Assembly: GCF_900142705.1 (NCBI RefSeq)
Contig: NZ_FRBV01000013.1
Location: forward strand, 1-64,000
Direction: 5' to 3'
Source of the DNA: Nitrosospira sp. Nsp11
GTDB lineage: Bacteria > Pseudomonadota > Gammaproteobacteria > Burkholderiales > Nitrosomonadaceae
DNA: 64,000 bases
Shown one piece after another: positions 19,492 to 36,053 of the stretch. A program made the translations under genes and the position numbers. How positions within the stretch are numbered: the first letter of the stretch is position 1; each line of letters opens with the position of its first letter. The notes beneath the pieces are model-generated. The model searched no databases. It was given only the letters and a program-made list of their open reading frames with translations, and was not told where the DNA came from.

Positions 19492-19838
19492 TTTGATTCC
19501 TCCCATGTTTCGCGATTATTGGTCTACCCACGCAAAGTGTGAACCTCAATAGCCTCGAATACAATAGGGATATTTCGAATGAGTTCGTGATGTCTAAAGA
19601 TGGGGATTGCCGGGAACAACGCATGGTGTAGAGCGTTTCCAGATAGCGCACTGAGAGGTGGTAGCACATAGGCGGCGCAGATTACCTGTCCAGGCAGAAA
19701 TTGCGCCCGGGCTCACCATTTTTTTGCTATCGACTATGCGACAGATGGGGGTTTATCGCTATTGACGGCCTAGGGCGTTCCGTGCAGTTACAACGTCATG
19801 CATCGATTCTTAATCTTCCCAAGACTTGGAGATTACGT

Positions 19839-20621
19839 TTATGCAAAATTTTTATTATTCATCTTCCCGAAGCACAATGCTTCCTTTGGAAGATTTCGTT
19901 CTATATCCTCTGCAATCGTGTGATAAAGGGGAAGTAAATTAACCCGCATATTGTTGATAGTGGCGCTGACGCTCATTATCGAGGGGATGCGCTCGCCGTT
20001 ATGCTCAATTGGACTACCAATATATTGCAGATCGAAGCCTAGCTTGCTGAAGTGACTCGCCAGCCGTTTCTCCGTCAGAACGAACACCGTATCAATTCCG
20101 TTCAAGCGCGCAAGTTCGGTGGTGGCGAGGTACAGGCCAATCGGGATGAATGGGAAGCGTGGCTGGTCCGGCGTGCCGAAATCCCCGCCCGAGATGCCAA
20201 CCGCGCTGTTTGCCTCACCTTTACGCCTGCGGAAGGCGGCGATAACGGCGAGGCGTGATACCTCGGCGATGTCTTGCCGGGGTAATTTGGATGGGTCAAT
20301 GATCGATCGGTCCAGCGCGGTAGCGCAAGTCTTTTCGAAAGGTAGCTGATAATAGGGATCCTCGGGCCGCGACAGGACAATGCGCGTGCAACCGATAAAT
20401 TCGCCAGTTTTTATGCTACGCATCAGGAGATGTAGAGAATTGGCGTCGTGCTCATCGGTTTCACGTCTATCCGGCCTGGTAGGTTCAAATTTCAGGTCTT
20501 CACAATAAACCTGATGCCGCACCCGGTAGACCTCTTCCTTCAGGGCGTCTGAGAATGCGGGTACGATTTCGAAGTGCTGCTTGAATGCACTGCCCAGATT
20601 GAATATTTTTGATGAGAACAT
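19839..20621 (-). CDS. PEP-CTERM/exosortase-associated acyltransferase
   Basis: 260 residues of the GNAT-like family found next to exosortase systems (related to acyl-homoserine-lactone and N-acyl amino acid synthases). Features are the start MFSSKIFNLGSAFKQHFE, then VRHQVYCEDLKFEP (about 38-51, aligned with the YRHQVFC.E motif of the family), FIGCTRIVL, and AEVSRLAVI in the acyl/acetyl binding core. It probably transfers an acyl group from ACP or CoA to an amine; donor and acceptor are unknown. I start at 20621, where family-like sequence begins; the frame continues upstream without similarity. First gene of the accessory region; PEP-CTERM genes follow 11 kb away. Confidence 0.85.
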   Translation of the reverse strand: MFSSKIFNLGSAFKQHFEIVPAFSDALKEEVYRVRHQVYCEDLKFEPTRPDRRETDEHDANSLHLLMRSIKTGEFIGCTRIVLSRPEDPYYQLPFEKTCATALDRSIIDPSKLPRQDIAEVSRLAVIAAFRRRKGEANSAVGISGGDFGTPDQPRFPFIPIGLYLATTELARLNGIDTVFVLTEKRLASHFSKLGFDLQYIGSPIEHNGERIPSIMSVSATINNMRVNLLPLYHTIAEDIERNLPKEALCFGKMNNKNFA

Positions 20622-21337
20622 ATTTGATTTCCCGGGACCTTCTGCTGAAGCGATGTTGGAAGGTAAAAAAATATCTGGAAATAAATTGGCTTCCTGTATG
20701 AGTATTAAGATGATTGACGTGAGCGTCCTTGAATCACAGGACGGATTTACTCTCTGATTCGAGGCTGGTTCTTTGGAATTCACGTACCGGCACAGCGTCG
20801 GGGCCAAGTTCATCAGTCTCCATGCCCGCATGTATATTTACGGAAGGCCGGATGCTAACTTTAGAGCTACTCCTTTTATTTCTTCTCACGCCTTTTAGAA
20901 TGATGAGCCTCCACTGGAATACAGGCCGATTTGGCCACACGATAGCGACATTAGACACAATGTCGCTATTTGAACCGCGAGCACAAGCCGGGATTGAACC
21001 CGGTTGCGGAATGGAAGGTGGATGCAGAACTACTCGAAGGTGCTAAGGCTCAGCGTTGTTCAGCGAGATATTTACCGCCACGCGGTAAGAAACTTCATAG
21101 CCATGAAAATGCGGGAAACGCTCCACCCGAATGTCCACGAAACATTGAGCCTTATGAATGGATAGGTACTTTTTCGATTGTTAGTCTTTTGTGCGGCCCG
21201 CCGATTGCGAGTGCGCCGAACTGTCGCAAACGACTCATGAGAATGCACAAAAGATCCGCTTGAGTTCAGCGCGGTTTCAGTTTCAGACCTTGTTAGTTGA
21301 GCCCCGTTTTCTGCAAAACATGCGCGTGGTTCGTTAT
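20622..21337. other. Long intergenic stretch with one strong hairpin
   Basis: No gene is supported in about 715 bp. ATAGCGACATT (20942-20952) pairs perfectly with AATGTCGCTAT (20959-20969) around AGACAC, an 11-bp stem. GCCGGGATTGAACCCGG near 20989-21005 resembles a tRNA T-arm, but no acceptor, D or anticodon arm accompanies it. Weak frames on both strands lack ribosome binding sites and domains. Confidence 0.4.
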
Positions 21338-22090
21338 TTATTCGAGTTTCTTCAGATAGTCTTTGGTAAAAATCTTGTCGGGTAGATCGCGGAGTTTCAT
21401 TTCTGTATATTCAAGCACCGATTCCTCGCCCCTGCGCAATGCATCAGTCATAACGAGGCGGGTAGGCCGCTTCTTGCCCAGTATCATCTCAAAGTTTTCA
21501 TAGCGAGCGGTTTTAAGCAAACGATCCGACAATGAGTAGAACTCGGCGCGATAGGGCCAGAAATCCGATTGCCGTACCCAGTATAAGACTTTATGATACG
21601 TAACGCTTCGATCGACGCCAATAAGCTCCAGTACGTAGTACTTATCCCCGTCGATGGTGTCTGTGCGCAGAATCGTGGCGTTGTAATCGCCGGCAAAGTT
21701 TGCGCGCGCCAAATCGCCGTTGGCTACCTGGCCGGTCAGTCGCTGCGACATGGAAAGGCGTATAGGTTGCGAAATTTCCGGCATGAATATCCACAAATCG
21801 CGCCCTTTCATCAGTAAAATTTGCCCGCGCTCGGAAGCCGGTTCGGTCGTCATCACCACGCTGTTCTCATTTCCTTTGGATAGAACCTGGTATTTGCGCC
21901 GCTCGGCAGTTTTATCAGGCGCTGTCGTATTGATATCGACGTCTACCTGGAAACTTTCACGCGGGAAGCGAATCTGGTCAGCTTTTTCCAGGATGCTTTG
22001 GGCTAATTCCGCATCCTCGGATGCGATCGATGCCGTAGTGAAAAACATGAAAATTACCATAAGCAGGTATTGCAAAGTTTTTACTTGCAT
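21338..22090 (-). CDS. LolA-like outer membrane lipoprotein-sorting protein
   Basis: 250 residues with a Sec signal peptide (MQVKTLQYLLMVIFMFFTTASIAS, cleaved near residue 24) and a mature part typical of the LolA-like/LppX-like lipid-carrier fold: VDVDINTTAPDKTAERRKYQVLSKG, LLMKGRDLWIFMPEISQPIRLS, LARANFAGDYNATIL, then YYVLELIGVD. Such periplasmic proteins carry acylated cargo between inner and outer membranes, often with an adjacent MacB/LolCDE-type transporter. ATG 22090 is preceded by AGGAATTG. It is transcribed away from a LolD-like ATPase gene across only 63 bp, so a shared divergent promoter is likely. Cargo unknown. Confidence 0.88.
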   Translation of the reverse strand: MQVKTLQYLLMVIFMFFTTASIASEDAELAQSILEKADQIRFPRESFQVDVDINTTAPDKTAERRKYQVLSKGNENSVVMTTEPASERGQILLMKGRDLWIFMPEISQPIRLSMSQRLTGQVANGDLARANFAGDYNATILRTDTIDGDKYYVLELIGVDRSVTYHKVLYWVRQSDFWPYRAEFYSLSDRLLKTARYENFEMILGKKRPTRLVMTDALRRGEESVLEYTEMKLRDLPDKIFTKDYLKKLE

Positions 22091-22153
22091 TTCAATTCCT
22101 GTCGTGAGATGCCGTTTACCCCTGTGTGGGTTTAAATATTTATGGAGTTTCTC

Positions 22154-22936
22154 ATGAGCATTGTACACCTCGAAAATGTTTTCAAAGACTACACCCTCGG
22201 GGAACAGCAGGTCCAGGCGCTGAGGGACGTTACGCTGAATATTGAGGACGGTGCTTTTCTTGCGATCGCTGGTCCCTCCGGCAGCGGCAAATCCACGTTG
22301 CTCAACCTGATCGGTTGCATCGATACTCCCTCATCTGGAAAAATATTCATCAATGGCCAGGATATCAGTGGCAAGAAGCCTGATGAGCTTTCCGACCTTC
22401 GGGCCCGAACGCTTGGTTTTATTTTTCAGACATTCAACCTCCTGCCGGTTCTTTCGGCTGAGGAGAACGTCGAATATCCCCTATTGCAATTCAAGGAGCT
22501 GAACGCAACAGAGCGGCGCAGCCGGGTGGCAAAATACCTCGCCATCGTGGGTCTGTCTTCATTTACTCGTCATCGCCCGGGCCAGTTGAGCGGTGGACAG
22601 CGGCAGCGGGTGGCCATCGCGCGTGCGCTGGCGACACAACCGAAGATTGTGTTGGCTGACGAGCCGACCGCCAATCTTGACCATAAGACTGGTGAAGGCA
22701 TTCTCCAATTAATGAAGAATATTAACGTCGAATTCAAGACCACCTTTATTTTTTCCACCCATGATCGGCGCGTGATGGAGTTGGCGGACAGGTTGGTGCA
22801 CATAGAAGATGGACGGATTGTTACGCAGGACGTGAGGGCGGGCGGACCAGTTGCAGTTATCGAGCGGTCTCCCGCGACAAATTACCCTCTGGTTCACGGC
22901 GCCAATCAAAGCGAGGCGGATGGAACACACATCTAA
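22154..22936 (+). CDS. LolD/MacB-type ABC transporter ATPase
   Basis: 260-residue nucleotide-binding subunit. Walker A GPSGSGKS is at about 42-49, the signature [16 protein letters not shown] near 144-159, Walker [13 protein letters not shown] near 165-176, and the switch His in STHDRR. The [21 protein letters not shown] start and [22 protein letters not shown]-loop are typical of the LolD/MacB/FtsE branch, which drives mechanotransmission across the periplasm without moving substrate through the membrane. Partner permeases are probably the two FtsX-type genes at 27033-29491, on the opposite strand. GGAG in the 22142 codons precedes ATG 22154. Overlaps the next gene by 17 bp. Confidence 0.94.
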
Positions 22937-24596
22937 ATCGACGTGTGTTGTATTGGTAGCGGCATTGATGGGTTTGCCGCTACAAGGCTTTGCCGGGGCT
23001 GGCGTACCCGACTCCCCTGCTCGTGCAAAACCGCCATCAGACGCATCGCTAGTGGGTGATTCGGATAAGGAGCCTTTATATTTGTCCTTATCTTTATCTT
23101 TATCTTTATCTTTATCCCCATCTTCAACTCGCAGCGCGGTGAAACCGGCCAGCAGCGCACATATCGCTGTCGACCTGGGGAATGCCTTGTCAGGGGAGAC
23201 CAGCGGCGAGCCCCTGCACATCTCTTTATCCCCCTCCCTTTCACTGTTCTCTGTCGAATCCTCCATCAAGGAAAATATGGCTGACTTGGCCTCGGAAGCT
23301 AAAGAGGACACCGAAACCGGATTTACATCCCGCGAGTCGCTATTTGGAGGCAACGCCCCGGTAAAGGAGAAATCGCCTCCCATACCGGTGTGGAAGCAGT
23401 TGGCAACGGGATGGAAAGGGTTTTCCCAGCTCGAAATCGCTGATAATTACGCGGATCCGGAACATTTATCCAAAGCAAAGCTGCGAACCGAATTGTCCCG
23501 AACCGGACAATTTGGCGAGCACGTAAAGTGGAAGATCAGTGGCCGTTTTGATTACGACGCCGCCTATGATCTATCCAATTTCTATCCCCCGGCGGTTCGC
23601 CGGGATCAACGCTATGAGTTTTTCCTGCGCGAGAATTACCTGGATGTTTCTGCCGGTGACTTCGACTTCCGCCTCGGCCGTCAACATGTCATCTGGGGCG
23701 AAATGGTCGGGTTGTTTTTCGCAGATGTGGTCTCGGCCAAGGATATGCGCGAGTTCGTCCTGCCCTCCTTCGATATCATACGAATACCGCAATGGGCGAT
23801 GCGTGCGGAATATTCGAAAAATGACATACATGCTGAAGTAGTGTGGATTCCCGTACCGACTCTTGACGAGAGCGGCAAGCCGGGCGCGGATTTTTACCCG
23901 GGTCCCCTGAGGGGAGCAGCCAGTTTTCTGCCCGAAGACCGTTCCGGGCGCAATGTTGCGCACTCTAATTATGGAGTTCGTTTATCGCAACTTAAAAATG
24001 GCTGGGATATTTCAGGTTTCTATTATCACAGCCTGGACGCCGCGCCGACCTTCTATCGTGCCAGCGCACCGGCCGAACCCCTTGTCTTCCAGGCGCGACA
24101 CGACGAGATCGACCAGGTTGGCGCAACGCTGGCGAAAGATTTCGGCTCAGTCGTGCTAAAAGGTGAGTTAATTTACACGGATGGGCGCAAGTTCAACGTC
24201 GCGCGCCCAAACGCGATCGATGGACTGGTCAGGCAGAATACGCTCGACTACGTACTGGGTCTTGATTTCAGCTTACCGGCCGAGACCCGATTGAATCTCC
24301 AGTTCTTTCAACGCGTCTTTTTCGCGCACGATCCAGCCCTTGTTACCGATAAGCTGGAGCATGGAGCCAGCATACTCCTCAACGGCAAACTCCGGCACAA
24401 CGTTGAGGCGCAGGCATTGCTGATTCATAGCCTGAATCGCGGCGACTGGATGTTCCGCCCGAGGCTATCCTGGAATTTTGAGAGAAATTGGCGTGCAGCA
24501 CTCGGGGCCGATGTTTTCGGCGGACAACCCACGGGGTTATTTGGTCGTTTCGATCAGAGTGACCGCGTCTATACCGAGCTACGCTATTCGTTCTGA
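22920..24596 (+). CDS. Outer membrane beta-barrel protein (DUF1302-like) with Leu-Ser repeat
   Basis: 558 residues. The signal peptide spans about 1-28 (ending near GFAGAG). Residues 30-155 are low complexity, including (Leu-Ser)n runs coded by a TTATCT hexamer repeat at 23088-23117 and a second SLSPSLSLFS stretch near residue 105. From residue 160 the sequence is amphipathic strand after strand, with FDFRLGRQHVIWGE (DUF1302-like signature), ending in a terminal Phe (ELRYSF) as outer membrane barrels do. It overlaps the ABC ATPase gene by 17 bp, so the two are coupled. It may be the outer membrane end of the transport route; the cargo is unknown. Confidence 0.85.
   Translation: MEHTSKSTCVVLVAALMGLPLQGFAGAGVPDSPARAKPPSDASLVGDSDKEPLYLSLSLSLSLSLSPSSTRSAVKPASSAHIAVDLGNALSGETSGEPLHISLSPSLSLFSVESSIKENMADLASEAKEDTETGFTSRESLFGGNAPVKEKSPPIPVWKQLATGWKGFSQLEIADNYADPEHLSKAKLRTELSRTGQFGEHVKWKISGRFDYDAAYDLSNFYPPAVRRDQRYEFFLRENYLDVSAGDFDFRLGRQHVIWGEMVGLFFADVVSAKDMREFVLPSFDIIRIPQWAMRAEYSKNDIHAEVVWIPVPTLDESGKPGADFYPGPLRGAASFLPEDRSGRNVAHSNYGVRLSQLKNGWDISGFYYHSLDAAPTFYRASAPAEPLVFQARHDEIDQVGATLAKDFGSVVLKGELIYTDGRKFNVARPNAIDGLVRQNTLDYVLGLDFSLPAETRLNLQFFQRVFFAHDPALVTDKLEHGASILLNGKLRHNVEAQALLIHSLNRGDWMFRPRLSWNFERNWRAALGADVFGGQPTGLFGRFDQSDRVYTELRYSF
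23088..23117 (+). repeat. Hexanucleotide tandem repeat inside barrel gene
   Basis: Four perfect copies of TTATCT (23088-23111) and one TTATCC (23112-23117), preceded by TTGTCC. In frame it codes Leu-Ser per unit. Copy number change would keep the frame and alter the linker length after the signal peptide. Confidence 0.9.
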
Positions 24597-24956
24597 TGAC
24601 TATGCATATGAAGCTCAGCCGGCATTACCCAACAATGGACGGATCCTATAGTAGCGCTTGGGGCTCATGCGGAACCAACTTTTTTTTGACCGATCGGAGA
24701 GCCAATTGCGCGGCATGGCGTAAAGAGTGCTGTTCAGCCGGCGTGAAAAAATCCATTGCTGAGCGTATTGCCGGAATGATTCTCAATTAATTTGGTTGCG
24801 TCGGCTATTCGTCGCGGTTGAGGTTATAATGAAAGGGGGTGTGATACGTATAACGAAGTAATCTGCTTCTTCTTATCCTCGTTTTCTCACTGCTGGTTAT
24901 GGTAATTTACAACTTGCTCAGGTAGAAACTGGCGCTTGCCGGGATTTTTGCATCGC
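24597..24956. other. Gap between barrel gene and thiF-like gene
   Basis: About 360 bp on the + strand transcript path. A 64-codon frame begins at 24596, overlapping the barrel stop as TGATG, but its Cys- and Trp-rich product shows no domain or hydrophobic pattern, so I do not call it. No hairpin with a T-run is seen, so transcription may continue into the thiF-like gene. Confidence 0.35.
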
Positions 24957-25814
24957 ATGTTATCCTTTATCTATGATGAAGCCTTTTCGAGGAACATCGG
25001 CTGGCTAACCCAGCGGGAGCAGGATCAGTTGCGCCATAAACGTGTGGCGATTGCGGGTCTGGGGGGCGTCGGCGGACTGCATCTATTAACGCTTTGCCGT
25101 CTGGGCATCGGCAAGTTTCATCTGGCCGATTTCGATACATTCGATCTGGCGAACTTCAATCGTCAGGCGGGCGCGACTGTAAGCGCCTTGAGTCATTCAA
25201 AGCTTGAGGTAATGACTCAGCAAGCGCGGGACATCAATCCCGAGCTGGAAATAACAGGATTTGCCGAAGGTGTAACTGCCGGCAACTTGGATGATTTTTT
25301 GAATGGAGTCGATATTTATATCGACGGTCTGGATTTCTTTGCCTTCGAAGCTCGTCAGCAGGTTTTTGCAGCGTGTGCGGCAAGGCGCATTCCCGCTGTG
25401 ACTGCCGCGCCCCTGGGTATGGGCGCCGCGGTACTGAATTTTTTACCGGGTAGCATGAGCTTTGACGATTACTTCCGTTTTGAGGACGGCCATGAGCGAG
25501 AAAAGCCCCTGCGCTTCCTCATGGGCCTGGCGCCTGCTCGCCTGCAAATGGGCTATCTGGTTGATCCTTCTACGGTTGATCTGGCCAATCGCAAGGGGCC
25601 ATCCACCATCATGGCCTGCCAATTGTGTGCTGGCGTGGCAGCAACCGAGGCTCTGAAAATCCTTCTCGGACGGGGTCCGGTCCGGGCCGCGCCCAAGGGC
25701 TATCATTTCGATGCTTATCGCAACAAGTTGGTGTTGACCTCGCGGCCTGGTGGAAATCGCAATCCCCTGCAACGCCTCGCTATAGCCTTCGCAAAGCGCA
25801 AATTGGGTCTTTAG
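24957..25814 (+). CDS. E1-like ThiF/MoeB-family adenylyltransferase
   Basis: 285 residues. The ATP-binding loop GLGGVGG is at about 36-42, followed by ADFDTFDLANFNRQ with the Asp and Arg used by E1 enzymes for Mg-ATP and adenylate formation. GLDFFAFEARQ and TAAPLGMGA continue the fold. MoeB/ThiF normally have two CxxC zinc pairs; only one (CQLC, near residue 226) is visible, so the zinc site is incomplete or lost. ThiF-type enzymes activate a C-terminal carboxylate, yet no ubiquitin-like small protein lies nearby. I start at ATG 24957; TTG 24936 is an alternative. The stop codon abuts the nitroreductase ATG with no gap. Confidence 0.9.
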   Translation: MLSFIYDEAFSRNIGWLTQREQDQLRHKRVAIAGLGGVGGLHLLTLCRLGIGKFHLADFDTFDLANFNRQAGATVSALSHSKLEVMTQQARDINPELEITGFAEGVTAGNLDDFLNGVDIYIDGLDFFAFEARQQVFAACAARRIPAVTAAPLGMGAAVLNFLPGSMSFDDYFRFEDGHEREKPLRFLMGLAPARLQMGYLVDPSTVDLANRKGPSTIMACQLCAGVAATEALKILLGRGPVRAAPKGYHFDAYRNKLVLTSRPGGNRNPLQRLAIAFAKRKLGL

Positions 25815-26894
25815 ATGCACCAAATCCCCCAGTCCATCTCGGATATTCTCGAACTCGCCCGCTGGGCGCCCAGTGGGGATAATACCCAGCCCTGGCGGTT
25901 CGAAATCATTGACGAACGCCACCTCGTCATCCACGCTTTCGATACGCGCGACCATTGCATATATGATCTGGACGGGCACCCCAGCCAGATTTCCTTGGGA
26001 GTCCTACTGGAAACTCTTGCTATAGCCGCCAGTGCGCACGCCATGCGAGCCGAATTCCGGCACAACCCCGAATCCCCCGATACGCGTCCCGAGTATTTTC
26101 TGGAACTGATCCCTGACAGCCTCCTGCAACCGGATTCGTTGTTGCCTCACGTCCAGCATCGTTCCGTGCAGCGGCGGCCCATGCGTACCATTCCCCTTAC
26201 CGAGCCACAGAAGCAAGCGCTGCAGCATGCGATCGGAATGTTCTATACCGTCCGTTGGTTCGAGGGAGGGATACAACGCTGGCACCTGGCGAAACTGATG
26301 TTTGATAACGCCAAACTCAGGCTTACCTTGCCGGAGGCTTATGACGTTCATCGCAGAATCATTGCATGGAATACGCGTTTCAGTGAAAACAAGGTACCTG
26401 ATCAAGCACTGGGGCTGGACCCGATGACGCTCAAATTGATGCGCTGGGTAATGACCAGTTGGGGGCGTGTCGATTTTTTTAACACTTATCTTGCGGGACA
26501 CCTGGTTCCCCGAATTGAAATGGATTTGCTGCCCGGCCTGTTCTGTGCCGCACACTTTGCCATTCTGGCTAAAAAGCCACCTGAGACTTTAGACGATTAT
26601 GTTGCGGCAGGCCGCGCGGTTCAGCGTTTCTGGCTGACGGCGACGGGTCTTGGTCTGCAATTACAACCAGAGTTGACTCCTTTGATTTTTACGCGCTATG
26701 TGCGCGAAGGCAGACCATTCAGCCGCCTGCCCGGCGCCATGGATACCGCGACCAGGCTAGGTAATCGTCTCTCGAGGTTACTGCAGAACGATCCGGTAGA
26801 ACAGGCGGTTTTTCTCGGACGCATCGGCAGTGGCGACGCCGTAACCAGTCGATCCCTGCGGTTGCCCGTTGAGAGATTAATAAGTGCGGAATAA
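25815..26894 (+). CDS. Nitroreductase-family flavoprotein
   Basis: 359 residues, longer than simple nitroreductases (about 200) because of a helical insertion around 140-250. The FMN-binding start ARWAPSGDNTQPWRFE is at about 14-29; the second half has AAGRAVQRFWLTATGLGLQLQPE, the usual C-terminal nitroreductase helix region. Starts directly at the stop of the ThiF-like gene, so the two act as one translational unit. ThiF-nitroreductase fusions exist elsewhere (Mycobacterium tuberculosis Rv1355c, annotated moeY, from memory), which supports a joint function such as activation followed by redox change of a carboxyl-derived group. Substrate unknown. Confidence 0.88.
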   Translation: MHQIPQSISDILELARWAPSGDNTQPWRFEIIDERHLVIHAFDTRDHCIYDLDGHPSQISLGVLLETLAIAASAHAMRAEFRHNPESPDTRPEYFLELIPDSLLQPDSLLPHVQHRSVQRRPMRTIPLTEPQKQALQHAIGMFYTVRWFEGGIQRWHLAKLMFDNAKLRLTLPEAYDVHRRIIAWNTRFSENKVPDQALGLDPMTLKLMRWVMTSWGRVDFFNTYLAGHLVPRIEMDLLPGLFCAAHFAILAKKPPETLDDYVAAGRAVQRFWLTATGLGLQLQPELTPLIFTRYVREGRPFSRLPGAMDTATRLGNRLSRLLQNDPVEQAVFLGRIGSGDAVTSRSLRLPVERLISAE

Positions 26895-27032
26895 ATAAAA
26901 ACTGTAACTCCGATTCGCTGAAACCGGTATTTGAATAAAAATGCGACGGCAGCTGTTACCCCACGGTTTTTTTCCGCGAAAAGGAGGGTGCTCGAGCCAT
27001 AGGGTATGGAGTAGTTTCATAATGAAGGATAT

Positions 27033-28244
27033 TTAGATATTGTGCCGTAGCGCGTCTACGACCTGCAGGCGCGACGCTCGGCGCGCCGGGAGCACGGCAG
27101 CCATGACGGATGCTAGTATGCCGGTAGCGGCTGCTGCCACAAGCGCCCACGGCACCAGACGAATCGTTGCAGTATAGCCAATGCTTGACCCCGGCGGCGG
27201 CGGCATGGCTATTCCCACTGCGGAGATAACGCTCGCAAGCATGATCCCCAGGATTACGCCGAGCAAGCTGCCAAGCAAACCCATCAGTGTATTCTCTAGC
27301 AGCACGAGTTTGAAGATCTGGCGTTGACGCAGGCCCAGGGCGAGCAATGTCCCGAATTCGCCGGTACGCTCGTAGATCACCATGTTGATGGTGCTGGCCA
27401 CGCTCAGAACCAGCATGACCAGTATGATGGCCTGCAAGGCTCCGAACTGGCGCCGGTACAATGCCTCGGTCTTTTGATAAAAGTCGGCCAACTCCTGCCA
27501 GGGCTTCACTTCATAGCCGAGCGGTCCCAGCCGCGCTCTGACAATTTCTGTCACAGCGTCCGTCGCGCCGGTATCATCCAGCAGCACAACAATGCTGTGA
27601 GCCGATGGCGTAAACAGCAATTCCTGAGCGGCTGACAGCGGTATGCGTACAGCCCGGTCATCGTATTCCTTGGAGAAAGTGCGGAATACGCCGACGACTT
27701 CATATTCATGCGTGTTCAGCGCGCCCTCAGGCGTATTCACCATCAAGGTCATGAAACTGCCGGGAGGCAAATGCAGAGCGGAAGCGACGCCTTCGCCAAT
27801 TACCGCTCCGAATGCATCGGAGTCCTGCAATGAGCGGCCTTCAACGATGGTTGTTGCTGTTCCCAGTTGCGCTTCCTTGCCTGGTTCGATGCCTTCGCCA
27901 ATGATAGGTAAATCAGCGCGGCTATTGTTGGCAAGACCGGAAAAATTCACGCGGGCCATTACGGCTTGTACATGTGGGATGGATTTTACCAAATCCACCA
28001 CGACCTTTGGCTGCGTGATCATATAACGCGCCGGCTCGCGCCGCCCGTACTCGTTAAAACCGCGCCGGAAAATCTGCACATGCCCTATACGGGAGTGAAT
28101 TGTCGTCTCCCGCAGTTGCACGAACACATCCTCGATAAACCCGCCACTGATGATAATGGCAATCACCCCGGTGACGATTGCCGCCAGTGTCAGCGCCGTG
28201 CGCAAACTGTTACGGAAAATATTGCGGAAGGCAAGCCTGAACAT
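27033..28244 (-). CDS. FtsX/MacB-type ABC permease, second of pair
   Basis: 403 residues. Membrane helix 1 is at about 15-37 (TALTLAAIVTGVIAIIISGGF), then a large periplasmic MacB-like domain (about 40-270), then three helices in 275-390 and the family ending PARRASRLQVVDALRHNI. This is the MacB/LolC/LolE topology, in which the periplasmic domain moves with ATP hydrolysis in the partner subunit. It lies 14 bp downstream of a paralogous permease, giving an inner-membrane heterodimer like LolC-LolE. No ATPase is on this strand; the LolD-like subunit at 22154 is the likely partner. Confidence 0.93.
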   Translation of the reverse strand: MFRLAFRNIFRNSLRTALTLAAIVTGVIAIIISGGFIEDVFVQLRETTIHSRIGHVQIFRRGFNEYGRREPARYMITQPKVVVDLVKSIPHVQAVMARVNFSGLANNSRADLPIIGEGIEPGKEAQLGTATTIVEGRSLQDSDAFGAVIGEGVASALHLPPGSFMTLMVNTPEGALNTHEYEVVGVFRTFSKEYDDRAVRIPLSAAQELLFTPSAHSIVVLLDDTGATDAVTEIVRARLGPLGYEVKPWQELADFYQKTEALYRRQFGALQAIILVMLVLSVASTINMVIYERTGEFGTLLALGLRQRQIFKLVLLENTLMGLLGSLLGVILGIMLASVISAVGIAMPPPPGSSIGYTATIRLVPWALVAAAATGILASVMAAVLPARRASRLQVVDALRHNI

Positions 28245-28258
28245 GCGCTTTCGAAGCT

Positions 28259-29491
28259 CTAGATGTTATGACGCAACGCGTCAACAATTGGCAGGCGCGA
28301 TGCCTTCCAGGCGGGATATAAGCCAGCGAGCAAAGTGGTTACAAACGCAATTAAAAACGCGATCATCAACACACCCAGCGTTACCCGGATTTCTCCGGTA
28401 TAACCTTCTTCCATGCCCGGAGGCGGGGGCATGGGAATGCCGATCGCAGAAATCAGTTCGGCCAGGCCGTAACCAAACACCAGGCCCAAGGATGCGCCAG
28501 CCAGCCCAAGTACGAGCCCTTCGATGGCGAACAGATAAAGTATTTTTTTTCGTTTGAAACCGAGGGCCAGCAGCGTGCCGATCTCGCCGGTGCGCTCGAG
28601 TACGTTCATCACCAGCATGTTGGAAATGCTGAGAGCAATGATGCATCCAATGATCAGCCGCAGTACGTTCATCTGCTGCGAGAACAGTGCCACCGTTTTA
28701 TTGTAGAAATCGGCTTGCTGATACCATGGCACAAATACCAGCTTGTTTTCCCCAGCCGGGAAGCGCGTGCGAAACCGCGCCAGATAGTCATCTGTGCGTT
28801 CGGTGTCTTCGAGCAGCACTAGCCAGGTGTGGACATCGCTAACCCGCATCAATGACTGCGCCAGGTCGATGGGCAGACGTAAGGCAGAATCGTCGTAAGC
28901 CTGGTTAGTGCTGACGAATATCCCAACGACTTTCCCCTCGACAGCGTTGATGCCGCCACCTGCAGTGGTTGTCAGCAGTGCGACCCTGGCATCCGGCCTC
29001 ACGTTAAGGGTACGCGCCAGACCGCGGCCCAGAATCACTTCTTTCGCAGCCGCATCGGCCAGATTTCGTCCTTCCACAATACGCAAGGACTTGCTTAACT
29101 TCGCTTCCTGCTTCGGGTCGATACCATCTGCCACAAATGCCACAGTTGTCTCACCATGACTGACGAGACCCGTCACCACCAGCCGCGGCGCCACCATCTT
29201 GACGCCAGGAGTGGATTCGATCGCTTCGCGCTGCGGCGAGCTCTCCGGCAATAAATAAGCGTAAGGATCGGCTGCGCCCGCCTTGAGGTATCCCGGCCGC
29301 ATGACTTGAATATGGCCTAATTGCGATTCGATGGTGCTTTCGCGCATGGCCCAGAAAATCCACTGGATGAATCCATCGGCGAGTACCAGCGAGCTGGCAC
29401 CGACAGTCACCGTAAGTAGGGCTACCAGTGCCCGTCTTCGATTACGCGCAAGATTGCGCGTGGCGATCAGCAGGTCAACCATGGCATTCAA
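28259..29491 (-). CDS. FtsX/MacB-type ABC permease, first of pair
   Basis: 410 residues, same fold as its neighbour: helix 1 about 20-42, periplasmic domain about 45-280, three helices near 285-400 and the end PAWKASRLPIVDALRHNI, almost the same as that of its neighbour. The duplicated PMPPPPG stretch before the last helix is shared by both. The start could be 29491 or the next Met at 29482; neither has a clear ribosome binding site. The pair probably forms a LolCE-like complex that extracts an acylated substrate from the inner membrane for the LolA-like carrier encoded at 21338. Confidence 0.93.
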   Translation of the reverse strand: MNAMVDLLIATRNLARNRRRALVALLTVTVGASSLVLADGFIQWIFWAMRESTIESQLGHIQVMRPGYLKAGAADPYAYLLPESSPQREAIESTPGVKMVAPRLVVTGLVSHGETTVAFVADGIDPKQEAKLSKSLRIVEGRNLADAAAKEVILGRGLARTLNVRPDARVALLTTTAGGGINAVEGKVVGIFVSTNQAYDDSALRLPIDLAQSLMRVSDVHTWLVLLEDTERTDDYLARFRTRFPAGENKLVFVPWYQQADFYNKTVALFSQQMNVLRLIIGCIIALSISNMLVMNVLERTGEIGTLLALGFKRKKILYLFAIEGLVLGLAGASLGLVFGYGLAELISAIGIPMPPPPGMEEGYTGEIRVTLGVLMIAFLIAFVTTLLAGLYPAWKASRLPIVDALRHNI

Positions 29492-29739
29492 AAATTATAG
29501 GAAATTTAACTGGAAAATTCATGAGTTACGGGAGTACTGTCATTATCAGATCTACGGTCGTCCCGGCCATTGCAGTCGTCGGGAACGGGTTGCCACCGGT
29601 TTCACATCTACCACTCGCGGCTTCCCTTCCTATTAACGGTTGGCCGTAGTGCATCTGTAAAACTTAAGCTAATTTTGTTGCATAGCGCGATACATAATAA
29701 TCCACGTGTTATGGTATCGCTTTCCTTGGAGCGCATGTT

Positions 29740-30987
29740 ATGGAAGCGCCAAAACCTGTCATTCTTTTTGTTGCCGAGTCAGTCACCCTTGCACATTTCG
29801 GGCGGATCGCGATGCTGGCAAAGGCGCTTGCTTCGTCTGCATATGAAATAGCTGTCGCGTCAGACCCTCGCTACATCGGTCTGGAACCCTCTCTGGAGCC
29901 GGTATTCCACCCTATTCGATCGATCCCGTCGGCGGAGTTCGCGCATGCCCTTGCTCGCGGAAAGCCGTTATACAGCGTCGAGACGCTCACCCAGTATGTT
30001 GAAGACGACCTGGCACTGCTCGACAGCCTGAAGCCCGATCTGGTCATAGGCGACTTCAGGCTATCGCTGGCCGTGAGCGCGCCATTACGAAAAATACCTT
30101 ATGCGGCCGTGGTGAATGCTTACTGGAGCCCATTCGCGAGTACCCGTTATCCGGTGCCTGACCTGCCCATGACGCGAATGGTGGGCGTGCGCCTGGCGCA
30201 AAAGCTGTTTGATACCGTTCGGCCCATGGCCTTCGCGCAGCATGCGCGGCCTTTGAATCGAGTGCGCCACAACTATGGGCTGCCGCCTCTCGGACCGGAT
30301 CTCAGGAATGCGTACACTTGGGGCGATTACACTTTATATGCCGACATCCCCGAAATGGTGCCGACCTGCAATCTGCCAGCCAACCATCACTATCTCGGTC
30401 CTGTGCTTTGGTCAACCCATACTCGATTGCCCGAGTGGTGGGATCGATTGCCCGACGGCAAGCCGGTGATTTTTATCACCCTGGGCAGTTCTGGGCAGGC
30501 GAGCCTCCTGCCCATGGCGCTCGATGCCTTATCGCGGCTACCGGCCACGGTTATCGTTGCCACCGCTGGCAAAATTGCGATTACCGATACGCCCGCCAAT
30601 GCATACGTTACCGATTATTTACCCATGGATATCGCAACCCGGCGTTCGAGACTGGTGATCAGCAACGGCGGCAGCCTGACCACTTATCAGGCACTAGCCA
30701 TCGGCGTGCCGGTCATCGGCCTGTGTTCCAATATGGACCAGTTGTTGAACATGGGAGCGGTGGAACGTGCAGGAGCCGGCCTTACGCTGCGTGGTGCAGA
30801 GATATCTGCTGCCGATCTCTTTTCGGCAGCAGATGCCATACTGGGGGATTCTCGTTTTTATCAGGCGGCTAGCGGGCTCAGCCGATTGTTGCAGCAGTAT
30901 GATGCGGGGCAGCGCTTACGGGAAATTGTAACGGAGATACTTGCTAAAAAGGGAAAGCAATCTTCATTGGATCAACTTGTGGGATAG
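29740..30987 (+). CDS. UGT-like GT-B glycosyltransferase
   Basis: 415 residues of the MGT/UGT family (GT1-like). The N-terminal domain has VILFVAESVTLAHFGRIAMLAKAL, with the His that serves as catalytic base in GT1 enzymes. The C-terminal nucleotide-sugar domain has FITLGSSGQ and LVISNGGSLTTYQALAIGVPVIGL with NMDQLLNM, the counterpart of the plant PSPG box. It transfers a sugar from a nucleotide donor to a lipid or small molecule; the acceptor is unknown. TTGGAGCGC precedes ATG 29740. Convergent with a PEP-CTERM gene; a frameshifted copy of its 3' third lies at 35678-35934 beside the second PEP-CTERM gene. Confidence 0.9.
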   Translation: MEAPKPVILFVAESVTLAHFGRIAMLAKALASSAYEIAVASDPRYIGLEPSLEPVFHPIRSIPSAEFAHALARGKPLYSVETLTQYVEDDLALLDSLKPDLVIGDFRLSLAVSAPLRKIPYAAVVNAYWSPFASTRYPVPDLPMTRMVGVRLAQKLFDTVRPMAFAQHARPLNRVRHNYGLPPLGPDLRNAYTWGDYTLYADIPEMVPTCNLPANHHYLGPVLWSTHTRLPEWWDRLPDGKPVIFITLGSSGQASLLPMALDALSRLPATVIVATAGKIAITDTPANAYVTDYLPMDIATRRSRLVISNGGSLTTYQALAIGVPVIGLCSNMDQLLNMGAVERAGAGLTLRGAEISAADLFSAADAILGDSRFYQAASGLSRLLQQYDAGQRLREIVTEILAKKGKQSSLDQLVG

Positions 30988-31103
30988 CAGCAGAGCAGCT
31001 CACTTTTTTATAACCAGGTTCAAGTAATGTCGAAAAATATTACACCCGTCGCCGGGAGTACTTCCGGTCAGTGCGGACCGGCCGCAAATAGCCAATGCTG
31101 AAT

Positions 31104-31135
31104 TAAAAAGGGCAAGGATCTGACCCCTTGCCCTT
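31104..31135 (-). terminator. Rho-independent terminator of PEP-CTERM gene 1
   Basis: AAGGGCAAGG (31108-31117) pairs with CCTTGCCCTT (31126-31135). On the minus strand the stem is followed by a TTTTTAATT tract. Stem and flanks are nearly identical to the terminator of the second PEP-CTERM gene (36002-36030). Confidence 0.9.
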
Positions 31136-31156
31136 CAAAACAGCCAACAGCAAGCA

Positions 31157-32158
31157 TTATGCAGGCCGGCGACGGCGGCCCGCGAAGCCCATGCCGAGCA
31201 TTCCCAAACCTACCAGCGCCATTGTGGCTGGTTCTGGAATCTGATTGTGACTTACAAACTGGGATTCATTTGTGTCCAGCGTAAATTCGTAGCGGCCAGT
31301 GGGTAACGTATGGGTTATTACATTAAAAAAAGCGAAAGTATTAAGAGGCGAGAATGAGATATTATCGCCGGCCCTGACCGTTCCCACGGTTCCATTCAGA
31401 TTTTCGGGATCAAAGAGTTCGATTCCCCCGATCGTGCCACCTGGCGCGTTGATAATGCCATCCGGAGCCCAGTTGAACACTTCTGTGTGTGGCGCTATAC
31501 CGGCGACGTCAACGGCAGTGACGGTGAGGCTGTTGTCGAAGTTCGCTTCGGCCTTCGAACCGGGCCCCGAATTCAGGTCCAGAATCACCTGCGCGTATGG
31601 GTTCGCGAAAAATTGGAATGCCATCGTGGCGGGTCCGTCCAGGTCGATTGTGAATGACGCCAGGGAGGACGATGAGCTGTTTTCCGCGCCCGAGTTGGCG
31701 AACCCGGTGAGCGGGATGTTACCCTCCGCAGCGTTCCGGACCGCGATCAGGGAAGTTGCCGTCTGTTCGCTAGGCGTATTGCCATCTCCCCAGGAGTAGG
31801 CCGTCGCAGTTTTGCCAAACGGTGTATAGCCGGCTTCAAAAGCACCTGGGCCCCCAGTCGGGCCGGCGTTCGTGACCGTCTCATCTGTTCTCAACGTTCC
31901 CTGGCTTGCAGCGGTAGCATTCGGCAGCAGACCAGACTTGACGTCTTCCGGATTATTCATTGGCGCCGGTGTTCCTGATGTGCTGGTTGCGGAAGAGGCA
32001 ATGCCCGGCGTGACTGTACCACCCGTTACGCCGATCTGGCCATCTTGGAGAACGACAGAGGATAAGGCATAGGCACCGGCCTGGGCTTGCTCCGACAGGA
32101 CCAAGCCCCCGGCCAGCAGGCTGGCCGACAGCGTAAGCAGCTTGAATTTCGTTTTCAT
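31157..32158 (-). CDS. PEP-CTERM sorting-signal protein 1
   Basis: 333 residues. A Sec signal peptide (MKTKFKLLTLSASLLAGGLVLSEQAQA) is followed by a Gly/Ser/Thr/Asn-rich extracellular-type domain with no Cys. The C-terminus is a PEP-CTERM signal: IPEPATM, a hydrophobic stretch ALVGLGMLGMGF, and basic GRRRRPA. Exosortase cleaves at PEP and moves the protein to the surface or extracellular matrix; no exosortase gene is in the window. AGGAGTATTAATT before ATG 32158 sets the start. A perfect terminator follows. The gene is convergent with the glycosyltransferase. Confidence 0.93.
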   Translation of the reverse strand: MKTKFKLLTLSASLLAGGLVLSEQAQAGAYALSSVVLQDGQIGVTGGTVTPGIASSATSTSGTPAPMNNPEDVKSGLLPNATAASQGTLRTDETVTNAGPTGGPGAFEAGYTPFGKTATAYSWGDGNTPSEQTATSLIAVRNAAEGNIPLTGFANSGAENSSSSSLASFTIDLDGPATMAFQFFANPYAQVILDLNSGPGSKAEANFDNSLTVTAVDVAGIAPHTEVFNWAPDGIINAPGGTIGGIELFDPENLNGTVGTVRAGDNISFSPLNTFAFFNVITHTLPTGRYEFTLDTNESQFVSHNQIPEPATMALVGLGMLGMGFAGRRRRPA

Positions 32159-32777
32159 AATTAATACTCCTGAGTTGGATAATCCTGCGAAACCGAAACC
32201 CGTCAAAAGCAAGACAGCTGCTCTAACTCGACAACTCGACAGCCTTGCTCCTGCTATTTTTGAAGCAATGTATATGCGAGTGTAATGTTAATCCTAATTA
32301 ACAATAACTTACAATATGATGTGCAAAGTCAGGAGCAGGTATTCGTCTTGGCTGTAAAATAATTCGACATTTATTGCCCGCAGTGCGCTCCCGAATGGGA
32401 GTTCGTCGGATGTCGTTAGAATGCTCAGGCACGCATTTCTTACCCTGCTGTTGCACCTAATCTGGGCGCCTTGCAGCACCATGGCGGTCAGGAACAGCTG
32501 GTACTGGCAGACGCGTGGAGGAGAGGGCAAAAAAAAACACCGGGGGCGCCGGCGTGCATTGACGGAATCCTCAGCGCAGGTAGGCCAAAAACTCAACAGG
32601 TGAATAATGTTGCGCCTGCGTAGGATTTATTAAGAGATTTTTTTGCAGAATCGGCTCTAGGGGGAGGCATGCTCGTCAATTGCAGATGGGCAAGGAAAGT
32701 ACACTCAGCCGGGTCATCCCCTGGTGTGTGAGTAAACCGACATTTTGCTCGTATAATAGATTACCTTCTTATTTTAT
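32159..32777. other. Intergenic stretch upstream of PEP-CTERM gene 1
   Basis: About 620 bp. It must hold the leftward promoter of PEP-CTERM gene 1. I looked for a sigma-54 site like the one at the second PEP-CTERM gene and found only a poor match (CAGCTGTCTTGCTT near 32206-32222, lacking the GG of the -24 element). No gene is supported. Confidence 0.35.
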
Positions 32778-33410
32778 CTATACTTCGCTGCCCCGCTTGA
32801 GTAGTTTAGCTGGGACGCCACCCCAGACTTCGCCCTTTCCGATTCTGCTGCCCTTGGTTACCACTGCACCCGCCGAGACGATGGCGTCATCACAGATAGT
32901 TACCCCCGACATTACGACAGCGGTTGCGCCGATAGTCACATTGTCTCCGATATGAATTGCGGAAAGTGAAAGCCGTCTGTTTTCTATGGCATGGGAAAAT
33001 AGCACCGCATCGTGGCCAATAATGCAGTTGTTACCGATATAAGTCAGCGGCGGATCGAGGATCGCGCCTGCGCTGTAAGTGTTGTGTCCCAGGCGTGCGC
33101 CAAGCGCAAGATAAACCAGACGAAGCAGCGGCACCGGCAGGAAGTGTGTTCTGATCAGAGAATTGAACAGGATAAGGTAGAACAATATATTGACTTGTGC
33201 CACAAACTCTACTTGTGAACCCTCTGCAATATCGCCCTCCCGCAGCGGCAAGATACTCAGAAACAGTTGGTATACTGCAAAGGCTTAAATTTACACCCAG
33301 AACAGGGCCGCGCACGTCAGCGCTATACCGCGGAAATCTCCTAGCAGTAGTGAGCCAAAAAGCAGTCAGCTAGTACCTAAGCCAAGCGCGAGGATCAATA
33401 TAAGCAACAT
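32778..33410 (-). pseudogene. Left-handed beta-helix acyltransferase, broken N-terminus
   Basis: The intact part (residues from about 33251 leftward) is a hexapeptide-repeat acyltransferase of the CysE/WcaB-like type: LPVPLLRLVYLALGARLG, then IGNNCIIGHDAVLFSHAIE, IGDNVTIGATAVVMSGVTI, IVSAGAVVTKGSRIG and the ending VWGGVPAKLL. Reading the same frame upstream to ATG 33410 gives the hydrophobic N-terminus expected of the family (MLLILILALGLGTS, LLFGSLLLGDF, YQLFLSILPLREG), but it contains three stops: TGA (33366-33368), TAA (33291-33293) and TAA (33285-33287). Total span is 211 codons, normal for the family. I conclude the gene is dead, unless a truncated form starts at TTG 33251. Confidence 0.8.
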
Positions 33411-33855
33411 CAGGAAAGCAAGACATTGACTTGACGTAATCTGTCGCATATCGGCTAAACGACGTCATGATTGCTGAGAGGCGGGGAACCTAGGCCGAAC
33501 AAAATGGAAAGTGTGAGCAACTACTGAGCCCAGTAGCAGCGTCCCTGAAGAAAGGGTGGATTGGCAGCAGTTGCGTCGAACGCATCGAGCGTTTCGTTAA
33601 GCCATTGCCGCGAAGGCTATTGTCGCAACGACGATTTGCCGCTGGCTTTACAGGCTACAGCCTGCACCACAGAATGCTCGCAAGCGTACGCCTAAAAAAA
33701 TTACAAATAGATTCTGCACCTGTTCGATCCTCTGCAGAGATAATTAATACGTCCCGCTTATTGCTGTTCTGGTTTTACGCGAGAACCGATTCCGTAGAGA
33801 GTCACAGTAAAAGCTAAAACCCGGGGTGAAGTGCATATAAGAAAAGCGTTTTTGC
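33411..33855. other. Intergenic stretch, nothing recognised
   Basis: About 445 bp between the acyltransferase pseudogene and the FeeM-type gene. AT-richer than the flanks, with no ribosome-binding-site-backed frame, hairpin with T-run or recognisable remnant. Confidence 0.3.
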
Positions 33856-34680
33856 TTAACCGTATAGAGCGGCAAAATCGAAAGCTGTTGCTCGGTTAAT
33901 GTGATTGATCCTCTTGGCCACCTTTTTTTCCTCATGCTCAGGTAAAAAATAGGGGTAGAGCGATCTTTCCCGCGGTTCATGCGAACCTGCCAAGCAGGAA
34001 ACCTGCGCATCCACGTAATCCAGTTCCAAATGCAGCAGCACAGCCGGGGCGTTGACCCGTCGACAGTTAGAGGTTTCGCCAAGCTGGCGAAACCCTAGCA
34101 TACGCTTATAATACCCGGTATGACGCGGGTTAACCTCAATAAAGAAATCTGTCGCCCTGTGAATGATGCGCCCGCATATGTACGCGAGGTTGAACAGGGA
34201 TGCTAGCAATTCCTTTGAGCTGAACTGAGGATCGATTGCGAGTTTTGACAATTCGCATACTTTTCTATCTTTTACCCGAAAGGTGCTGATTTTCTCTTTA
34301 TAAAGTTCGTCAGCCAGCAGCCCATGTTCCGAATCGAGCCTTAGTGAGAGTGTGCCGACAAGGTCTTCCCCGTTGAACGCCTCCAAAGTGGTCTGACTGG
34401 GCGGTACCGCAGTATTCTCGGTATTGTAGCCACGCCATGAGTACATACGCTTAACGAGCGCGCTCACCTCACTACTTCGCCCCGGTGAATCTGCCAGGCG
34501 GATGCTGTAGTCCCCACGCCTCAAAACACACTGATCAAAGGCTTCATTCCGCAACCCCTCATTAGGTCGTACATGTGGCGCAGTCATTAACCTCAGCGAA
34601 GTGCGGTTTCCGCTCGTTGCTGCGGATGAGAAGGAATGGGGTCTGTCCAAGCGACGAGCTTCATCATTATGTAATAGCAT
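33856..34680 (-). CDS. FeeM-type N-acyl amino acid synthase
   Basis: 274 residues. The core shows the FeeM/GNAT pattern: LVKRMYSWRGYNTE (about 72-85), TTLEAFNGEDLVGTLSLRLDSE (about 92-113), LLADELYKEKI, then RKVCELSKLAIDP near 135-148 and FIEVNPRHTGYYKRMLGF near 180. FeeM joins a fatty acyl group from acyl-ACP to an amino acid; the acidic LADELY segment matches the acyl binding region of that group. The N-terminal 40 residues are variable; a Met near residue 33 (MTAPHV) is an alternative start. Flanked by an acyltransferase pseudogene and transposase debris. Product unknown, but an N-acyl amino acid is the best guess. Confidence 0.85.
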   Translation of the reverse strand: MLLHNDEARRLDRPHSFSSAATSGNRTSLRLMTAPHVRPNEGLRNEAFDQCVLRRGDYSIRLADSPGRSSEVSALVKRMYSWRGYNTENTAVPPSQTTLEAFNGEDLVGTLSLRLDSEHGLLADELYKEKISTFRVKDRKVCELSKLAIDPQFSSKELLASLFNLAYICGRIIHRATDFFIEVNPRHTGYYKRMLGFRQLGETSNCRRVNAPAVLLHLELDYVDAQVSCLAGSHEPRERSLYPYFLPEHEEKKVAKRINHINRATAFDFAALYG

Positions 34681-35674: not shown

Positions 35675-35677
35675 AAC

Positions 35678-35934: not shown

Positions 35935-36000
35935 CGGGCGCGTACCACTGGCGTTTCCCTATGCAAGTACACCGAAACGATTCGCAGGTTGTTTAATAAA

Positions 36001-36030: not shown

Positions 36031-36053
36031 CAAAACTATTAGCTTGGAAGCAG

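Follow-up and report, generated by a model that had tools for sequence, protein, structure and literature searches.

A separate Lol-like exporter set coupled to N-acyl amino acid synthase, ThiF and nitroreductase genes in Nitrosospira and its relatives

We analyzed a 64,000-nucleotide stretch of DNA from Nitrosospira sp. Nsp11 (contig NZ_FRBV01000013.1, positions 1 to 64,000; contig C10 of a 35-contig, 3.2 Mb genome), hereafter the window, and within it a block of genes at 19839-34680 in which genes for acyltransferases and putative tailoring enzymes stand with an exporter set resembling the Lol lipoprotein system. Gene families were assigned by hidden Markov model scans (Pfam and NCBIfam) with curated cut-offs. 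The original prediction, made from the sequence letters, had named two acyltransferases bracketing a LolA-like carrier, a LolD-like ATPase, a beta-barrel, an E1-like ThiF enzyme, a nitroreductase, two LolC/E-like permeases and a glycosyltransferase. All of these families were recovered at the positions given for them, with small corrections to two starts: the LolA gene more likely begins at ~22090 (not 22168) and the DUF1302 gene at ~22920. The two acyltransferases proved to belong to different families, as had been claimed, namely TIGR03694 and FeeM (PF21926). The genes of the block that concern the exporter and the enzymes are as follows.

19839-20621, minus strand: exosortase-associated acyltransferase (TIGR03694) of the N-acyl amino acid synthase (NAS) type, here called NAS-x (258.9 bits, cut-off 111.95)
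21338-22090, minus strand: LolA-superfamily periplasmic carrier, LolA_like, orthologue of NE2245 (PDB 3BUU) (PF17131, 173.4 bits)
22154-22936, plus strand: LolD-like ABC ATPase, divergent from the carrier gene (ABC_tran, 120 bits; TIGR02211 LolD, 224.7 bits, cut-off 307.75)
22920-24596, plus strand: DUF1302 protein, predicted outer-membrane beta-barrel (PF06980, 54.3 bits, cut-off 23.2)
24936-25814, plus strand: ThiF/E1-like enzyme (PF00899, 151 bits; NF006077, 451.5 bits, cut-off 266; PRK14852, 265.7 bits)
25815-26894, plus strand: nitroreductase-superfamily flavoprotein (PF00881, 37.4 bits, cut-off 23.5)
27033-28244, minus strand: LolF/LolE-like FtsX permease B (MacB_PCD, 79 bits; FtsX, 70 bits; TIGR02212, 108.3 bits, cut-off 362.45)
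28259-29491, minus strand: LolF/LolE-like FtsX permease A, type I (FtsX, 70 bits; TIGR02212, 121.2 bits)
29740-30987, plus strand: EryCIII/UDPGT-type glycosyltransferase (PF06722, 50.5 bits)
33856-34680, minus strand: FeeM-type NAS (PF21926, 168.5 bits, cut-off 27)

The DUF1302 gene overlaps the end of the ATPase gene, and the NAS-x gene lies downstream of the carrier gene on the same strand. Both permeases scored below the curated cut-off for LolCE (TIGR02212), and the ATPase, which is the only LolD match in the window, scored below that for LolD (TIGR02211). Comparison of a permease A profile with the PDB placed LolF (1.2e-25), LolE (9.8e-24) and LolC (1.6e-20) ahead of MacB (2.8e-15). The carrier matched PF17131 only, at E values up to 0.001, and not PF03548 (LolA proper); a profile of 37 carrier orthologues hit 3buu_A, "Uncharacterized LolA superfamily protein NE2245", at 9e-131, NE tags being those of Nitrosomonas europaea. 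Papers are cited here by their PMC numbers and, PMC12479983 apart, for the passages drawn upon; one of these lists 3BUU among structures mostly without a known periplasmic function (PMC6394551). The DUF1302 protein is predicted to be a beta-barrel from its family assignment, and its profile found no match in the PDB at E values up to 1. Of the relatives picked for the profile alignments, 36 of 66 went into A3 and 27 of 27 into A4. Household LolCE (520 bits, contig C23) and a household PF03548 LolA (167 bits, contig C12) are encoded elsewhere in the same genome. By these assignments the exporter is a separate Lol-like set, consisting of two LolF/LolE-like permeases, a LolD-like ATPase, a LolA-superfamily carrier and a putative DUF1302 barrel. 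It resembles the Lol system (LolA, LolCDE/LolF) in its FtsX/MacB-type permeases, ATPase and carrier superfamily but differs in missing the curated cut-offs, in the Pfam family of the carrier, in existing beside a household copy and in the attached barrel. Distant three-gene sets of a LolD, a single permease and a LolA-like carrier (27-39% identical) were also seen in genomes of the same class (L082-L089), which suggests that there may be a larger unnamed class of Lol-like exporters.

Analysis of the enzymes by sequence comparison with the PDB showed that the FeeM-type NAS matches FeeM (2g0b, 2.2e-14) and that the ThiF protein matches Escherichia coli ThiF (5e-18), in an alignment spanning the glycine-rich loop and the acidic motif; MoeB was also matched by sequence. 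Both NAS scored over their family cut-offs. The nitroreductase gene starts at the base directly after the ThiF stop codon, with no gap. ThiF is a distant match to the Rv1355c family (73 bits, cut-off 476), and the nitroreductase matched the Acg/Rv3131 (108.3 bits) and Rv1355c (100.8 bits) families, each under its cut-off, and weakly matched Acg (2ymv, 0.0025). The FeeM-type NAS, ThiF and the nitroreductase match, in that order, parts of PRK14852, a single 989-residue fusion protein (residues 84-225, 40 bits; 312-586, 266 bits; and 622-792, a weak 20 bits, respectively). Among 40 genomes of the class with ThiF, 16 had a ThiF open frame of 621-855 residues, and a nitroreductase match came next on the strand in 15 of the 16, as in a ThiF-nitroreductase fusion.

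This trio of enzymes is already known as an acyl-oxazolone or N-acyl dehydrotyrosine pathway, and the claim that the biosynthesis is undescribed therefore did not hold (PMC10404671, PMC12856293, PMC12479983). TyzACB/TrzAS of Mycobacterium tuberculosis and relatives and OxzAB of Pseudoalteromonas rubra consist of the same NAS, ThiF cyclase and nitroreductase-superfamily flavin oxidase, adjacent or fused; an amino acid is acylated by TyzA or TrzA, cyclization with ATP is the task of TyzB or of the ThiF part in TrzS, and desaturation that of TyzC or the oxidase part (PMC10404671, PMC12856293). Clusters of NasY, ThiF and nitroreductase go with N-acyl dehydrotyrosines and 2,3-dehydrotyrosines; these Gram-negative clusters have the same three genes as the window (PMC12479983). 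By family score, the window enzymes are only distantly like Tyz, Trz and Oxz. This pathway offers the best model for the chemistry of the block, and by analogy we propose that the window ThiF is an N-acyl amino acid adenylating cyclase that forms an oxazolone and that the nitroreductase is a desaturase. For the exporter, no counterpart was seen in these systems: no Lol-like exporter is described for Tyz, Trz or Oxz in the passages drawn upon, where tyz lies near mmpL9 (PMC10404671, PMC12856293), and the main text on the N-acyl dehydrotyrosine clusters does not mention LolA, a transporter, ABC or DUF1302 (PMC12479983). In the literature searched, which did not extend to subscription papers, we found no description of NAS, ThiF and nitroreductase coupled to a dedicated Lol-like exporter. 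The statement that no characterized system has this set stands, within that literature, for the exporter coupling and fails for the enzyme core; the kind of chemistry is known, and only the link with this exporter appears to be new.

Two other chemistries were considered and rejected. Synthesis of acyl-homoserine lactone quorum signals was discounted, as NAS-x matched such synthases in the PDB at an E value of 0.023 or worse, versus 258.9 bits for TIGR03694. Chemistry of ribosomally synthesized and post-translationally modified peptides or thiazole/oxazole-modified microcins was discounted likewise: no YcaO was present among the 15 open reading frames (ORFs) scanned at 18277-39468, and the oxazolone pathway accounts for ThiF and the nitroreductase. 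The genome holds a second FeeM-type NAS (C23:81271-81714), about 8 kb from the household LolCE, and a second TIGR03694 acyltransferase (C34:121991-122680, 261 bits).

The arrangement of the block was compared with that in relatives. Scanning GTDB with the carrier profile yielded 319 relatives, of which the best 80, all close to the window, were used as loci; these 80 include Nitrosospira, Nitrosovibrio, Nitrosomonas, Accumulibacter, Azonexus, Dechloromonas, Propionivibrio and Rhodocyclus. A further 13, more distant loci of the class brought the total to 93. Loci with at least 8 kb on each side of the carrier were termed well flanked (55 of 80; the other 25 were set aside). The ORFs of relatives were called by a greedy script that missed or misplaced some genes, and L095 and L103 were read by tblastn where the methods differed. 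LolD was found in 79 of the 80 loci, DUF1302 in 78, including all 55 well-flanked ones, and ThiF in 25. LolD and DUF1302 were adjacent on the same strand in 75 of the 78 loci having both, and LolD was divergent from LolA in 76 of 78. A TIGR03694-like NAS was present in 40 loci, and in 40/40 it lay downstream of LolA, on its strand and no more than 2.5 kb away; L098 has a ThiF gene between the two. ThiF and permease A occurred together in 24 of the 80 loci and were 69-184 bp apart in 14 of these. ThiF was rejected as a fixed member of the exporter, being variable.

The interval between DUF1302 and the permeases, readable in 53 loci, was empty (300 bp or less) in 17. Non-empty intervals contained ThiF, nitroreductases, a flavin adenine dinucleotide (FAD) oxidase, a methyltransferase or a glycosyltransferase, and 8 of the 53 contained a PEP-CTERM gene; where the gene order differs, the interval holds LolA or LolD. 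In L115, L116, L136 and others, an FAD_binding_4 oxidase or an S-adenosylmethionine methyltransferase in this interval replaces or accompanies ThiF and the nitroreductase, a hint that one exporter may serve several tailoring chemistries. The glycosyltransferase is an optional neighbor (14 of 93 loci). The ATPase might have paired with a different, remote permease, a possibility raised with the original prediction; among 17 genomes picked by hand from the 40 loci without permease A near the carrier, 15 had a tandem permease pair elsewhere in the genome, and the window has the one LolD-like ATPase, which argues against such a pairing. GGDEF/EAL response-regulator proteins were encoded near the carrier in 23 of the 80 loci (for example, L132:13913-16114), and genes for cyclic di-GMP turnover have been noted beside trzAS (PMC12856293).

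Co-occurrence was assessed genome-wide by running five queries against one set of 369 genomes of the class. Orthologues of the carrier (E value 6.4e-80 or better, the next match being 7.7e-35) and of permease A (4.8e-114 or better) were found in an identical set of 14 genomes from 8 families. By Fisher tests, which ignore kinship, ThiF was enriched in these exporter genomes (12/14 versus 40/369 overall, P 4e-11), as were exosortase (14/14 versus 125/369, P 1.6e-7) and TIGR03694 over its cut-off (11/14 versus 47/369, P 1.3e-8), and ThiF or TIGR03694 was present in all 14. Within the 125 exosortase genomes, the exporter was still associated with ThiF (P 9e-6) and TIGR03694 (P 3e-5). ThiF lay with the exporter on the same stretch of 20 kb or less in 11 of the 14 genomes, window included. 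A 120-genome sample of the phylum, which also included genomes of the same class, yielded no orthologue outside the class, the best match there being 1.7e-31 at 32% identity. The coupling of enzymes and exporter is beyond chance and the set recurs across genomes; the expectation that these genes form a functional neighborhood, conserved in related genomes, was borne out by co-occurrence and synteny alike.

Within the Nitrosospira group, the permease pair has been exchanged together with ThiF and the nitroreductase, while the carrier and barrel were kept. Twelve loci of the Nitrosospira/Nitrosovibrio type, counting the window, have both permeases near the carrier; their carriers (71-98% identical) and NAS-x (60-95%) gave no sign of two types, whereas the permeases fell into two types about 50% identical to each other. 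Type I permeases (the window, L094, L095, L096 and L103) share 72-83% identity with one another and with those of two loci from another family, f23. Trees were built from 36 rows, taken from loci selected by hand because both permeases, the carrier and the barrel were present; L056 fell out of the set. The permease data rejected the 12 loci as a clade (log-likelihood drop 684, p 1.4e-6); the carrier and barrel data recovered them (support 96.9) and rejected a type I clade (drop 214, p 6e-64). Parsimony on the carrier/barrel tree required four changes of permease type. ThiF (78-85% identical) and the nitroreductase stood between DUF1302 and the permeases in 5/5 type I loci of the group and in 0/7 type II loci (P 0.0013); counting in Nitrosovibrio Nv4, which has a ThiF beside its type II pair, the test reads 5/5 versus 1/8 (P 0.005). 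In f23, the type I pair is accompanied by a glycosyltransferase (70-71% identical), and in L094 and L103 a LolD 82-86% identical to that of f23 stands next to the pair, with no resident LolD.

Over all loci, permease A divergence was correlated, once LolA divergence was accounted for, with that of ThiF (partial r 0.73, n=33, p 0.0005; 0.75 without type I, n=27) and the nitroreductase (0.69, n=23), and much less with that of DUF1302 (0.26, n=51), NAS-x (0.27, n=23) or LolD (0.09, n=52); NAS-x divergence followed DUF1302 (0.66, n=42). The inner-membrane pump and the tailoring enzymes behave as an exchangeable head, and the carrier, the barrel and, in close relatives, the TIGR03694 NAS as a conserved tail.

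Five further genes, none of them in the original prediction, lie inside the block (the first two) or just beyond it.

31157-32212, minus strand: EDSAP-1 family PEP-CTERM protein (NF041538, 168.6 bits, cut-off 100)
32778-33251, minus strand: hexapeptide-repeat acyltransferase-like ORF (NeuD/DapD-type partial matches below cut-off)
36054-37148, minus strand: PEP-CTERM protein, system context (PF07589, 33.8 bits)
40605-43436, minus strand: PrsT, tetratricopeptide-repeat protein of the XrtA/PEP-CTERM system (TIGR02917, 797.6 bits, cut-off 312.2)
43557-46349, minus strand: second PrsT paralogue, in tandem with the first (TIGR02917, 943.5 bits, cut-off 312.2)

The hexapeptide ORF is an optional neighbor (9 of 93 loci). 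With TIGR03694, the PEP-CTERM and PrsT genes are the XrtA system genes of the window. Craig, Cherry and Brady (2011) reportedly tied NAS genes to the PEP-CTERM/exosortase system. No exosortase gene lies inside the block; the genome has two exosortase (PF09721) matches on other contigs, C23 and C22. Among the matches listed, an exosortase lies within about 20 kb of the exporter in at least 4 of the 14 exporter genomes. Across the 80 loci, cluster representatives over the cut-off identified XrtA-system homologues for chain length (TIGR03007, 12), export (TIGR03027, 14) and the kinase (TIGR03018, 3). Since 111 of the 125 exosortase genomes are without the exporter, PEP-CTERM sorting needs no such exporter. 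We found no paper treating exosortase and LolA together in the open literature searched, subscription papers being outside its scope; among the matches listed, papers naming both PEP-CTERM and LolA draw no link between them in the passages seen, and in one of these LolA is part of the author names. In Methylomonas LW13, disruption of an exosortase-associated NAS kept the polysaccharide band from forming normally, and complementation restored it (PMC11072679). Together with the XrtA neighborhood, this result favors a lipid that is exported and has its effect in or on the matrix.

On balance, we consider it probable that the block, as part of the XrtA/PEP-CTERM matrix system, makes an N-acyl (dehydro)amino acid or oxazolone lipid and delivers it to the outer membrane. 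N-acylation, cyclization and desaturation have been demonstrated for relatives (PMC10404671, PMC12856293). We infer the product, the transported substrate, the direction and the complex, taking it that the window enzymes act as their relatives do, that the cargo is what they make and that delivery by carrier and barrel runs outward. In such a scheme, one or both NAS would act in the cytosol, attaching a fatty acyl group to an amino acid. ThiF would adenylate the carboxylate and close the N-acyl amino acid to an oxazolone, and the nitroreductase-type flavoenzyme would desaturate it; as with TyzACB and TrzAS, the outcome would be an acyl-oxazolone or an N-acyl dehydro-amino acid. The permease pair and LolD-like ATPase would then lift the lipid from the inner membrane, the carrier would ferry it across the periplasm, and the DUF1302 barrel would insert it into the outer membrane or pass it through, so that it ends up among exopolysaccharide and PEP-CTERM proteins. 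The earlier proposal that the product is acylated and redox-modified and reaches the outer membrane through a Lol-like system remains the best reading; the glycosylated and lipoprotein options that accompanied it have less support.

Several observations weigh against this interpretation. In nine of the 55 well-flanked loci, no match to NAS, ThiF or a nitroreductase lies close by, and TIGR03694 scores over its cut-off in only two of those nine genomes; in one of the other seven, Dechloromonas denitrificans (L188), ThiF and a nitroreductase stand beside its distant permease pair. The order of LolA and NAS-x is not kept in the 13 more distant loci of the class (0/4 with NAS-x), ThiF is missing from 2 and TIGR03694 over its cut-off from 3 of the 14 exporter genomes, and the window nitroreductase is under the cut-off of every NCBIfam model it matched. 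In trzAS strains, the cells contained more tryptazolones than the medium did (PMC12856293). The LW13 mutant, moreover, showed no growth in the gradient system used, and its band loss may therefore be indirect (PMC11072679). As to the exchange, Nitrosovibrio Nv4 (L189) combines a type II pair with a neighboring ThiF that shares 82% identity with that of the window, and in f23 L041 has a ThiF of only 67% identity and L080 none nearby, so that the pairing of permease type with ThiF is not strict. Only one contrast on well-supported (starred) branches backs a joint exchange of permease and ThiF, and neighboring genes co-diverge by linkage alone, which contributes to the correlations given above.

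We considered whether the exporter and the NAS/ThiF genes might instead be bystanders, separate functions piled up in exopolysaccharide islands, with the exporter moving another envelope lipid or expelling toxic hydrophobes. The nine loci without nearby enzymes and the 17 empty barrel-permease intervals fit this idea, and AmeABCD of Castellaniella defragrans confers tolerance as an efflux system (PMC6394551). However, the association with ThiF and TIGR03694 persists within exosortase-positive genomes, the order of LolA and NAS-x is fixed in all 40 close relatives with NAS-x, and co-divergence extends beyond the carrier background; we regard this explanation as unlikely. The Lol-like set could also carry proteins, either lipoproteins or C-terminally modified XrtA PEP-CTERM proteins, with the NAS product used otherwise. 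The closeness of permease A to the lipoprotein exporters LolF, LolE and LolC, the exosortase in every exporter genome, the PEP-CTERM genes between permeases and barrel in eight loci, and the two PEP-CTERM and two PrsT genes of the window all speak for a protein cargo. Nevertheless, most exosortase genomes lack the exporter, household LolCE and LolA are present elsewhere in the genome, and permease divergence tracks ThiF and the nitroreductase; no lipoprotein family was seen among annotated representatives of the neighbor clusters, in which no lipobox scan was made. A protein cargo is likewise unlikely in our judgment.

A variant that joins lipid and protein would have the NAS/ThiF lipid serve as the acceptor that exosortase joins to the cut PEP-CTERM C-terminus, with the Lol-like set as the outer-membrane delivery line for the capped proteins and the exchanged permease heads matching different lipid caps. 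Its support comes from the co-occurrence with exosortase and from the intervals that contain PEP-CTERM genes, and the exosortase genomes without exporter count against it; we hold it to be very improbable. That the set is a second, redundant version of the household Lol system for lipoproteins is more improbable still: the protein superfamilies are the same, but the permeases and ATPase are under the curated Lol cut-offs, the carrier belongs to PF17131 and not PF03548, DUF1302 accompanies it in every well-flanked locus, and the household Lol genes are found elsewhere in the genome.

In AmeABCD, a DUF1302 outer-membrane protein and a LolA-superfamily periplasmic protein are co-expressed with an inner-membrane pump, and its deletion lowers monoterpene tolerance (PMC6394551); it is a precedent for handling small hydrophobes with a DUF1302 protein, a LolA-superfamily protein and a pump. 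It differs in having a resistance-nodulation-division (RND; HAE3) pump rather than an ABC pump, monoterpene substrates and an extra component, AmeC (PMC6394551). No RND family was present among the 15 ORFs scanned at 18277-39468, which instead include the FtsX/MacB-type ABC permeases. Borrelia BBJ23-29 combines a MacB-like ABC exporter with a LolA-like protein and an outer-membrane barrel, and a non-polar ligand has been proposed; its barrel is of the Omp85 type, and NAS, ThiF and nitroreductase are not named in the passages drawn upon (PMC13078400).

The physiological role of acyl-oxazolones has been called a major unresolved question (PMC12856293), and an exporter that co-occurs with acyl-oxazolone-type genes and exosortase makes it testable whether the lipid is meant for the outer membrane or matrix. 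The block further provides a candidate function for the orphan structure 3BUU (NE2245) and an instance of an envelope exporter whose pump and product-tailoring enzymes are exchanged while carrier and barrel are retained. Its relatives include nitrifiers and wastewater bacteria such as Accumulibacter, in which the surface matrix matters practically.

Sigma-54-like sites were seen at 37209-37224 (exact, 60 bp upstream of the PEP-CTERM gene 36054-37148), at 34915-34930 (one mismatch, 234 bp upstream of the FeeM-type NAS) and at 32264-32279, upstream of the EDSAP-1 gene (two mismatches, with TTTACA 73 nt upstream). Co-regulation by sigma-54 was rejected as too weak: 49 matches with up to two mismatches occur in the window where 38.9 would be expected, a count reached in 2 of 100 shuffles. 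Scans of the window for tRNA genes and Rfam families found nothing. About 1.4 kb between the FeeM-type NAS and the PEP-CTERM gene (34681-36053) holds no recognized gene, and an ORF within it (35053-35574) had no Pfam or NCBIfam match at an E value of 0.001. Beside the block, at 18277-19506, lies an ammonium transporter family gene of a divergent subtype (125 bits versus the curated Amt cut-off of 343), and a gene of this type stands beside the block in 8 of the 80 relative loci.

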